NCBI GenBank assembly: GCA_903828975.1 | Contig: CAIKOD010000154.1 | Coordinates: 1-46,699 of the forward strand | Direction: 5' to 3' | DNA from: an uncultured Methanomicrobiales archaeon | GTDB taxonomy: Archaea > Halobacteriota > Methanomicrobia > Methanomicrobiales > Methanospirillaceae | DNA length: 46,699 bases | Shown: in pieces, positions 902-25,890 of the stretch | How the letters are laid out: each line of letters opens with the position of its first letter | Position numbering within the stretch: position 1 is the first letter of the stretch | Program-made: the position numbers and the translations under genes | Notes under the pieces: model-generated | The model's database searches: none | What the model saw: only the letters and a program-made list of their open reading frames with translations | What the model was told of the DNA's origin: nothing

Positions 902-2095
902 CACCGGACTCAAATAAAGACTCTCTCCAATGTATCTAAATTTCCCATATCAGTATATCCGAATCGGCAAAAATGAGCGGGAGATCTCAATAGTCGCATG
1001 GGCATGAAGATTCCAAGTTGGTAATTATCGAAGGCTCCCTGATGATCCCCCGACCTACACCCTCACAGTTCAGAGATGTGAAGAAGGCAACCGGCAATTC
1101 ATCATGGCATTTTATACCGATCAGCGCACAGTTCATACCTCTCAAGCAAAAACTGTTTGAAGCTCACTACCTCTTTATATAACACAACCCAAGGGGTTGC
1201 AGAACTCGTTTATAAGCAAAAAAGAAGAATCGGATTCTGGGATCTATTGTATTCGCCGGCCAGAATTTGACCCCCATTAGTCAGAAGATAGATGTCTTGT
1301 TTTATAAAGAAAGTAGGGGTTCGCTATTTGTAGAGGGGATCAGTAATAAATTAAAATGTTTGAGTTGATGGGGCTCGTGCCCCCAAAACCCCCCTGTAAG
1401 ATAGTTCCGCCACCCCAGAAGGACGCCCCAGTGGCGGTTTAATAACGAATCTCAACCTATGGAACGGTTATGCTTCATTAACGGATGCTTTAGTAATTAC
1501 ACTGGAAATAGTGCCTAACTTTATGGATTTGATTCGTTCGTTTGTTATCTATGGAGAATCATCGATAATGTGAGGATCGGAGTATCGTTTTTACAGAAAG
1601 ATCCTTATGCTACCTTGCAACTTTTAGTCCATTATTATTAGAACACAAATGTGGAATCGGGTCTGGTTTATTCATCACTAAAATGAAGCAATATTACTTG
1701 AACGATAGGATAAATCTCCTATAAAGAATATATAGGAAATCACCATCGACCAGAAATTATTAGAAAAAACCAAAAAAACGGGTGTTAGAGTTCTCAAAAA
1801 AGTTGTCAAAATACGTAATATTAACCACGGGTATACGCATGACTTCTCTACGTATCGATCCCTGTTTTGTACTCGAGGAGAGAAAATGCCTAAACCAGCA
1901 AATACCTGTAGAGTAGGTCATGTCTCTGGTATAAGTATAATGGGATAAGTTGAAAATAAGATGATCCGGAGTACCCGTATCCCCTGATCATAGTTCAAGG
2001 TTAGGTGGTGACTCTCCTCTCCCTTCTATTATTATTGCACAATCCCTGAGCACTGGTGAATGAAGGCAGAGAATATTTCCACAATAATACACACC
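902..2095. other. AT-rich gene-free stretch (decayed accessory DNA)
   Basis: About 1.2 kb with no credible reading frame on either strand; stops are frequent in all frames. It contains an old copy of the MITE family described elsewhere (about 1316-1570). The rest shows no tRNA, CRISPR or conserved coding pattern that I can recognise. It ends at the left end of the IS1634-type element. It probably represents decayed mobile DNA. Confidence 0.6.
1316..1570 (+). repeat. Diverged full-length copy of the MITE family
   Basis: The order of landmarks matches the two younger copies at 5665 and 20867: 'ttcgctatt' at 1320, 'ttgatggggct' near 1365, a GC-rich hairpin with loop containing 'gaaggacgcccc' at about 1407-1440, and 'gttatcta' near 1544. 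The total length (about 255 bp) fits the 260-262 bp of the others. The terminal inverted repeats are decayed (ggggttcgct instead of GGCTCTTCGCT on the left, unrecognisable on the right), so the ends are approximate. Confidence 0.55.
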
Positions 2096-5539: not shown

Positions 5540-5664
5540 ATATCTGCATGCCCGGTCTTTTATCAGGTGAATCTTTTTTTTCTGGATTCTTGACTTATGA
5601 GCCTGGTAGGATTACATGATCCCCCAGGTGCCTGCCTGATCTTCCGAAACGATAAAAATCAATC

Positions 5665-5926
5665 GGCTCTTCGCTATTATGAGTGGGTAACTATGAGAGT
5701 GTAAAAAAAATGAATTGATGGGGCTCCGCCCAAAACCCCGATTCAGAGAGTTCCGCCGCCCCCGAAGGACGCCCCGGCGGCGGTTCAGTGCGTGTTGATG
5801 CAATTGTTCATAGTAGTTCCAATATTTAGAGGGCGATTTTCCAATTCTAATGTTTGATTGTCTTTTGATTTCATTTGTTGATATCTGAAGTTCAGGTTAT
5901 CTACCCACACGATTCAGCGAAGAGCC
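5665..5926. mobile_element. MITE copy 1 (262 bp, ISL3-like ends, 8-bp duplication)
   Basis: A non-coding element bounded by perfect 11-bp terminal inverted repeats (GGCTCTTCGCT ... AGCGAAGAGCC) and an exact 8-bp target duplication AATCAATC (5657-5664 and 5927-5934). Ends beginning GGCTCTT and AT-rich 8-bp duplications are characteristic of the ISL3 family, so an ISL3-type transposase supplied in trans is the likely mover. Inside is a GC-rich hairpin (CCGCCGCC...GGCGGCGG) with a conserved loop. A second copy lies at 20867-21126 and a decayed one near 1316-1570. The small reading frames inside are not genes. Confidence 0.85.
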
Positions 5927-5946
5927 AATCAATCGATGCAAGGAAA

Positions 5947-10954: not shown

Positions 10955-11030
10955 TTTTATATCCCGTCCCGTTGAATTGTTTAGGAATACGGGATGCGTC
11001 CCGTGTAGGAATGTAGCTCTGAAAAGAGCT
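10955..11030 (+). promoter_or_regulatory. Promoter and structured leader of the rpl15e superoperon
   Basis: TATA box TTTTATAT at 10955-10962 predicts transcription starting near 10985. The leader begins with hairpin ACGGGA-TGCG-TCCCGT (10989-11004), then hairpin AGCTCT-GAAA-AGAGCT (11015-11030) closed by a GNRA tetraloop. Both stems are perfect 6-bp. The second ends 17 bases before the rpl15e ATG and the GGTG ribosome-binding site falls between. Position and structure suggest autogenous control by a ribosomal protein; this is inference. Confidence 0.6.
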
Positions 11031-11047
11031 GAACCTTGGTGAATATC

Positions 11048-17781: not shown

Positions 17782-17854
17782 GCCCAGGTAGTGTAGCGGC
17801 CCATCATGTCTGCCTGTCACGCAGACGACTCGGATTCGAATTCCGACCTGGGCG
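17782..17854 (+). tRNA. tRNA-Asp (GUC)
   Basis: 73-nt cloverleaf without intron: acceptor GCCCAGG/CCTGGGC, anticodon stem TCTGC/GCAGA with loop CTGTCAC (anticodon GTC), T-loop TTCGAAT, discriminator G as required for Asp. Only 22 bases after tRNA-Tyr, so probably one precursor. Confidence 0.95.
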
Positions 17855-20866: not shown

Positions 20867-21126
20867 GGCTCTTCGCTATTATGAGTGGATAACTATGAGA
20901 GTGTAAAAAAATGAAATGATGGGGCTCCGCCCCTAACCCCGATTAAGAGAGTTCCGCTGCCCCCGAAGTACCCCCCCCAGCGGCGGTTCAGTGCGTGTTG
21001 ACGCAATTGTTCATAGTATCTCCAATATTTAGGGCGATTTTCCAATTCTAATGTTTAATTGTCTTTTAATTTCATTTGTTGATATCTTAAGTTCAGGTTA
21101 TCTACCCAACGATTCAGCGAAGAGCC
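20867..21126. mobile_element. MITE copy 2 (260 bp)
   Basis: Second copy of the element at 5665, same orientation, with perfect 11-bp terminal inverted repeats GGCTCTTCGCT/AGCGAAGAGCC and about 90% identity by eye. Flanking target sequence is T-rich: the last 7 bases before (TTTTTTA) equal the first 7 after, consistent with a 7-8 bp duplication. The internal hairpin is kept (CCGCTGC...GCGGCGG). It lies 128 bp upstream of the HEAT-repeat gene and could affect its promoter. Confidence 0.85.
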
Positions 21127-25816: not shown

Positions 25817-25890
25817 GCCTTAGTAGCTCAGTTTGGGAGAGCGCCAGACTGAAGATCTGGTTGTCCCCGGTTCAAATCCGGGCTGAGGCA
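25817..25890 (+). tRNA. tRNA-Phe (GAA)
   Basis: 74-nt cloverleaf: acceptor GCCTTAG/CTGAGGC (one U-G pair), anticodon stem CCAGA/TCTGG, anticodon GAA at 25851-25853, T-arm CCCGG-TTCAAAT-CCGGG, discriminator A. Its last 16 bases plus the next two are repeated exactly at 30183-30200. AT-rich promoter directly upstream. Confidence 0.97.

Follow-up and report, generated by a model that had tools for sequence, protein, structure and literature searches.

MITE copies and hairpins in the window

The window analysed here, 46,699 nucleotides long, is contig C154 of a draft archaeal genome (2.58 Mb in 186 contigs) and holds two copies of one MITE with the ends GGCTCTTCGC...GCGAAGAGCC. Copy 1 (262 bp, positions 5665..5926, forward strand) was delimited from the sequence, the inverted repeat I14, the other copies and the alignment; its imperfect terminal inverted repeats lie at 5665-5689 and 5902-5926, and sequence and alignment place an 8-bp target-site duplication, AATCAATC, at 5657..5664 on its left and 5927..5934 on its right. 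Copy 2, also on the forward strand at 20867..21126, was recognised by its sequence, the other copies and the alignment. A search for an empty site of the window MITE gave none, the G003 contig stopping inside the neighbouring gene. Two hairpins follow one another on the forward strand of copy 1: hp0, read from the sequence as a small GGGGC/GCCC hairpin at 5720..5739 with another C-run behind it, and, downstream, hp1, a conserved hairpin of 31 nt at 5753..5783 whose 8-bp stem pairs 5753-5760 with 5776-5783 (CCGCCGCC/GGCGGCGG). In copy 2, hp1 (20954..20986, forward strand) has the stem CCGCTGC/GCGGCGG with one G-T pair and an altered loop with several changes and a 2-nt insertion; as the G-T pair is present in the C179 copy too, it probably reflects one event. 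At locus L005 (G000:C15:6366-6402) the right half of the MITE occurs with another, shorter GC hairpin, CCGCCGGGACCCCCGCGGCGG, in the place of hp1.

The 262-bp element combines ISL3-like terminal inverted repeats with an 8-bp target duplication, the two traits by which an ISL3-derived MITE is recognised. A MITE with an ISL3 partner is known from Methanosarcina acetivorans, for which part of PMC3852290 lists one of 179 bp. The window MITE resembles ISL3-family derivatives in its GGCTCTTCG-type ends, its 8-bp duplication and the ISL3 transposases of its relatives (L101 and L102 have the ends GGCTCTTCG/CGAAGAGCC), but differs in that its conserved centre is common to other transposon families. A search of the window's own draft genome of 186 contigs for an autonomous ISL3 partner gave no PF01610 match.

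The original prediction held that compensatory stem changes across three copies of this MITE imply selection on structure, as RNA or single-stranded DNA. The three stems had all been read correctly, and the stem pairs at all three places in the window; three copies are, however, too few to show selection. The folding energy of hp1 in copy 1 is ordinary for its composition (z of -1.0 and -0.8), no more stable than shuffles. Across five copies of the MITE, four from the window's genome and one from G001, variable columns number 2 of 16 in the stem, 7 of 31 in the hairpin and 66 of 228 elsewhere, the last count being inflated by a few columns because the C38 and G001 rows pass on their right into decayed end or flank, and stem and rest do not differ significantly (p=0.25).

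At gathering cut-offs, Rfam matched the window elsewhere than at the hairpin, namely at two tRNAs (17782-17854 and 25817-25890) and at an eL15-Euryarchaeota ribosomal leader (10990-11040, 37.0 bits). On sets of 18 and 20 loci it gave nothing on the hairpin at E<=1, and a known RNA family was rejected for want of such a match.

The third hairpin lies in a relic of another element

The third site had been taken for an old copy of the MITE. Its match to the MITE is limited to the two-hairpin core, 82% over 79 nt, which comprises hp0 with the following C-run (1370..1395, forward strand, from sequence) and hp1 (1407..1437, forward strand) with the stem CCGCCAC/GTGGCGG, in which one pair is fully compensated from G-C to A-T. 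Outside the core, 1254-1437 matches another element, L055 (78% over 186 nt), as well as L037, and 1497-1616 matches L096/L049 (73%), sequences similar to the region downstream of the L029 IS256-type transposase. To judge from these matches, the site at 1407-1437 is a relic of a different, mosaic element (1254..1616, forward strand), its left part like L055/L037 and its right part like an IS256-type 3' region, and not of the MITE. The view of the three sites as copies of one MITE thus stands for copies 1 and 2 and falls for the third, which has only the core in common with them and other flanks.

The hairpin is spread through one family

A search with the whole MITE matched 19 of 61 genomes, its own included (E<=0.001), many of them in the hairpin alone and often at 92-100% identity. 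A 29-letter hairpin pattern with 28 fixed letters matched exactly in 54 stretches among 84,980 genomes, which were placed in one family, with Methanolinea and Methanoregula among them; on sequence grounds, the 31-letter hairpin is not a chance occurrence. The exact pattern was absent from the viral contigs searched and the MITE had no blastn match at E<=1e-5 in plasmids and phages, and a viral, plasmid or phage source was rejected on these results.

A covariance model, R1, built from 66 hairpin copies matched 73 of the 108 genomes sampled from the window's family, taken to be Methanoregulaceae, at E<=0.01, with between 1 and at least 150 matches per carrier (at least 150 in G092, 146 in G093, 84 in G021); the other 35 had no match at this threshold, strict filters being prone to lose weak matches. 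At E<=1e-4 the model matched 72 of the 108 and, in the rest of the order, 1 of 124 genomes (124 by subtraction). In a phylum-wide draw of 392, matches at this threshold came from 24 genomes of the family, from G222 and, as a single weak match apiece, from three more. Among the titles and opening lines of abstracts listed for the open-licence literature on archaeal REPs, MITEs, ISL3-linked MITEs and Methanoregula repeats, no report of the hairpin repeat was found.

Unrelated mobile elements carry the hairpin

The same hairpin occurs outside the MITE, in other contexts and in copies without MITE ends, and the original proposal of structure selection as a property of the MITE is not supported. 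MITEs with ISL3-like ends carry hp1 in the window and in Methanolinea, and in four ISL3 elements (L027, L091, L094 and L086) hp0 and hp1 precede the start of the transposase. L027 (G029) runs from its left end through hp0 and hp1 to the start of a degenerate ISL3 transposase and on to its right end; in the other three the first part of the ISL3 transposase starts about 45-55 nt past the hairpin match, that of L091 comprising zinc-ribbon and HTH domains. The hairpin is not general to ISL3, since G015, G063 and G069 have ISL3 transposases but no hairpin match.

In L029 the hairpin follows an IS256-type transposase (PF00872, E 1.8e-105), 22 nt past its stop codon, and L026, whose contig starts there, has the same 22-nt spacing after a similar C-terminal end. 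A further hairpin-bearing MITE has the ends GGGTATAGTG/CACTATACCC. Strict patterns applied to 174 hairpin copies found both ISL3-like ends in at least 9 and both GGGTATAGTG/CACTATACCC-type ends in at least 4, while an hp0-like motif lay within 60 nt upstream in 66 of the 174 and downstream in none. Loci L068, L069, L074 and L076 represent a MITE family with the ends GGGTATAGTGTCATTGTTACCACC and AT-rich duplications.

Hairpins also occur without recognised ends, some of those in G016 being tandem at 165-281 nt from one another. Other GC-rich palindromes (e.g. CGCAGCGGCGGGGCGAAGCCCCGGGAGCGTC) lie about 100 nt downstream of several hairpins in the G016 loci L181-L200, in a BIME-like mosaic.

In Methanoregula-type genomes the hairpin is set within a unit of about 260 nt that has a second hairpin, hp2 (CCCCGCC...GGCGGGG), and outer inverted repeats CATGAAAATCG/CGATTTTCATG. 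By a loose pattern, hp2 follows 41 of the 174 hairpin copies; it is absent from the window MITE. At L274, L281, L293, L294 and other G092/G093 loci the unit, sometimes tandem, comprises hp1, hp2, a 3' GTGAAC...GTTCAT hairpin and, in some cases, hp0. At these loci it looks like an undescribed repeat or RNA. A C/D-box or kink-turn (GATGAAC...TTCAATGAC) was considered and dropped, since neither the window MITE nor the G016 copies retain its lower stem.

Conservation and covariation of the hairpin

Ten copies from ten genera, of which the pattern yielded three, the MITE search five and the model one, the tenth being the query, have a mean identity of 0.963 over the 31 hairpin columns versus a chance-level 0.277 and 0.275 in the two 80-nt flanks; the hairpin value is partly ascertainment, since resemblance to the hairpin or MITE was how every copy was found, whereas the chance-level flanks are not. 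The identity of the hairpin is likewise inflated in alignment A1, where 32 of 66 rows were found by the near-exact pattern. Of 160 distinct copies, 136 have GAT in the 8 nt ahead of the stem (the window MITE copy lacks it) and 110 have TCA behind it. The unpaired CGCCCC is intact in 139. Most loops read GAA (100, counted with one pattern), others GAC (22) or GAT (8).

A covariation test over many copies lent support to the suspected paired change in one measure and less so in two others. Two-sided cells exceeded the shuffles (4 in A1, 7 in A2 and 3 in A3, reached by 0, 0 and 1 of 500), but 29, 70 and 1 of the 500 had at least as many pairs with two-sided change, and 213, 71 and 79 at least as many pair types. 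In these alignments related copies are counted many times, A1 omits the locus match L062 and has 20 distinct rows in common with A2, and A2, like A3, was fitted to the model. Pairing in cells reached 87-96% in the hairpin register versus 16-73% in slid controls. The innermost pair fails to form in 49 of the 52 rows of A3, and RNAalifold retained 4 pairs only.

Full compensations could be followed in 155 distinct copies, 5 of the 160 being skipped for a shifted stem register (L210, L211 and L287:150 have an intact shifted stem). Pair 1 changes from C-G to T-A in five copies from two genera, four of them from one genome. Pair 6 changes from G-C to A-T in three, namely the window relic and two G092 copies, so that the exchange noted originally recurs in another genus. 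One-sided and mismatching changes together outnumber the full compensations, which leaves the expectation that unpaired changes would be scarce in other copies with a mixed answer. By a hand tally that ignored misregistered or broken rows (L217, L221 and its duplicate L008, L223, L193:2415 and L276:858), one-sided wobble changes number about 15 on the + strand and 8 on the - strand, which draws no distinction between RNA and DNA (p=0.21). The step from paired change to selection is itself unsupported, as stems can also be made and repaired, and paired changes hence produced, by template switching during replication (PMC8794818, in part).

In the Methanoregula-type alignment A5, 27 of 45 sequences have U-A at the inner pair of hp2 and 15 have C-G. 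Across the three helices two-sided changes fill 19 cells (0 of 500 shuffles) and touch 4 pairs (43 of 500 shuffles); the seven hp1 pairs are without any two-sided change.

Position relative to genes

Gene neighbours were taken from 68 matches in 59 loci and the window, of which 66 were examined (L223 and L193:2415 were left out) and 64 had flanking frames. The hairpin lies between convergent genes in 26 cases, tandem genes in 29 and divergent genes in 9, versus 6, 16 and 13 of 35 control gaps, match-free and of at least 100 bp in the same stretches. It is thus commoner between convergent (p=0.024) and rarer between divergent genes (p=0.012) than the control gaps, in a comparison where frames were picked by length (at least 120 aa for controls, at least 90 aa for hairpin neighbours) and the tandem G016 copies are not independent. 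Its orientation relative to tandem genes is neutral (17 versus 12, p=0.46), and some matches fall within open frames that were judged spurious.

Within 60 nt downstream, 37 of 174 copies have a run of six A, versus 12 of 161 control windows 300 nt off (p=0.0003); the opposite strand would therefore have a U-run after hp2 where hp2 is present. A U-run behind a hairpin would suit an archaeal terminator.

Discussion

We propose a model in which hp1 is a lineage-specific, REP-like interspersed palindrome of Methanoregulaceae, mostly without a RAYT partner and borne by unrelated transposons, and we lean, by a little, towards accepting it with its function included. The hairpin is a conserved unit of 31-32 nt that occurs in about two thirds of the sampled family, lies mainly between genes and is built into several unrelated transposons and MITEs. 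Transposons would bring hairpin copies to new sites and tandem duplication would add more, and the palindrome may be kept by a putative host factor that recognises it, folded or as a duplex, near transcript ends, where the hairpin would serve as a putative bidirectional transcript end or insulator. The same recognition may make hairpin-bearing insertions tolerable. The window MITE would then be an internal-deletion derivative of an ISL3-type transposon that retained the hairpin from its parent's leader. The palindrome, which in one genome reaches at least 150 copies and mostly lacks the known kind of partner, is nearly confined to one family and yet part of unrelated transposons. If selection keeps it, this points to an archaeal factor that reads it, and the tolerance of transposon insertions would follow a simple rule. 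The case also cautions that what is conserved at the centre of a MITE may be part of something larger than that MITE.

The foremost alternative, possible although we would not back it, is a purely selfish or neutral repeat, functionless transposon baggage whose stem is kept perfect by template switching between its arms. Several mobile elements do carry the hairpin, stems can be created and mended in this manner according to part of PMC8794818, and full compensations are few (five copies at pair 1, three at pair 6) beside many one-sided changes. Such a repeat does not readily explain why the hairpin, its unpaired part included, is about 96% identical over ten genera (a figure partly ascertained) when its flanks are at chance, nor why CGCCCC is intact in 139 of 160 copies, an unpaired stretch that arm-to-arm template switching would not conserve.

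A more far-reaching form of the model, which we consider unlikely, is that ISL3, IS256-type and at least one other transposon each took up the host hairpin and keep it under selection as a cis-acting pass, the factor ending or insulating transcripts and its bearers being tolerated. If true, host intergenic regions and mobile DNA would have a lineage-wide, sequence-specific signal in common.

Less probable again is that hp1 is one helix of a larger structured RNA, the Methanoregula-type unit of about 260 nt with hp2. The exchange of U-A and C-G at the inner hp2 pair and the 19 two-sided cells over three helices would fit such an RNA; hp2, however, is missing from the window MITE and loosely matched after only 41 of 174 copies, Rfam gave no match on it in the loci searched at E<=1, and orientation is neutral to tandem genes. 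A MITE-specific RNA or single-stranded DNA structure under selection, as first proposed, is very improbable: the stem pairs at all three places in the window, but the same hairpin occurs outside the MITE and in copies without its ends, inside the MITE the stem is not significantly more conserved than the rest, and the third site belongs to another element.

REP-like repeats are usually attributed to a dedicated transposase, and RAYT-associated REPs have a conserved GTAG-like tetranucleotide at the 5' foot. The hairpin is a short imperfect palindrome, extragenic and of high copy number, as REPs are, with GAT (136 of 160 distinct copies) and not GTAG shortly before the stem. A classical REP mobilised by a RAYT (Y1 transposase) is the least credible reading, for all the short intergenic palindrome, conserved 5' GAT and many copies, since PF01797 (Y1_Tnp) is found in 5 of the 108 family genomes versus the hairpin in 73, which led us to reject a RAYT of the PF01797 family as general partner; the window's own draft genome has no PF01797 match. 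Bacterial REP/BIME systems with RAYT, as far as part of PMC12306157 describes them, resemble the palindrome proposed here in being short, extragenic and present in many copies, with a short conserved 5' motif and mosaic neighbours; they differ in that most hairpin carrier genomes are without PF01797 and that the hairpins are built into unrelated transposons.

A second comparison is with the recurrent potential G-quadruplex sequences (rPQS) of Methanomicrobiaceae, which the consulted portion of PMC8044849 describes as all intergenic, about half tail-to-tail and 11% head-to-head, with unbiased orientation. Both are near-identical, GC-rich, hairpin-capable repeats scattered in one family of the same order with a similar pattern of gene positions. 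The rPQS differ in having another sequence, belonging to the sister family and being defined by four G-runs with a C-rich partner on the 3' side, and the word stem 'transpos' has no occurrence in the main text of that paper. Within the window, hp0 together with its C-run is similar in design to the published Methanomicrobiaceae G-quadruplex/triplex repeats.
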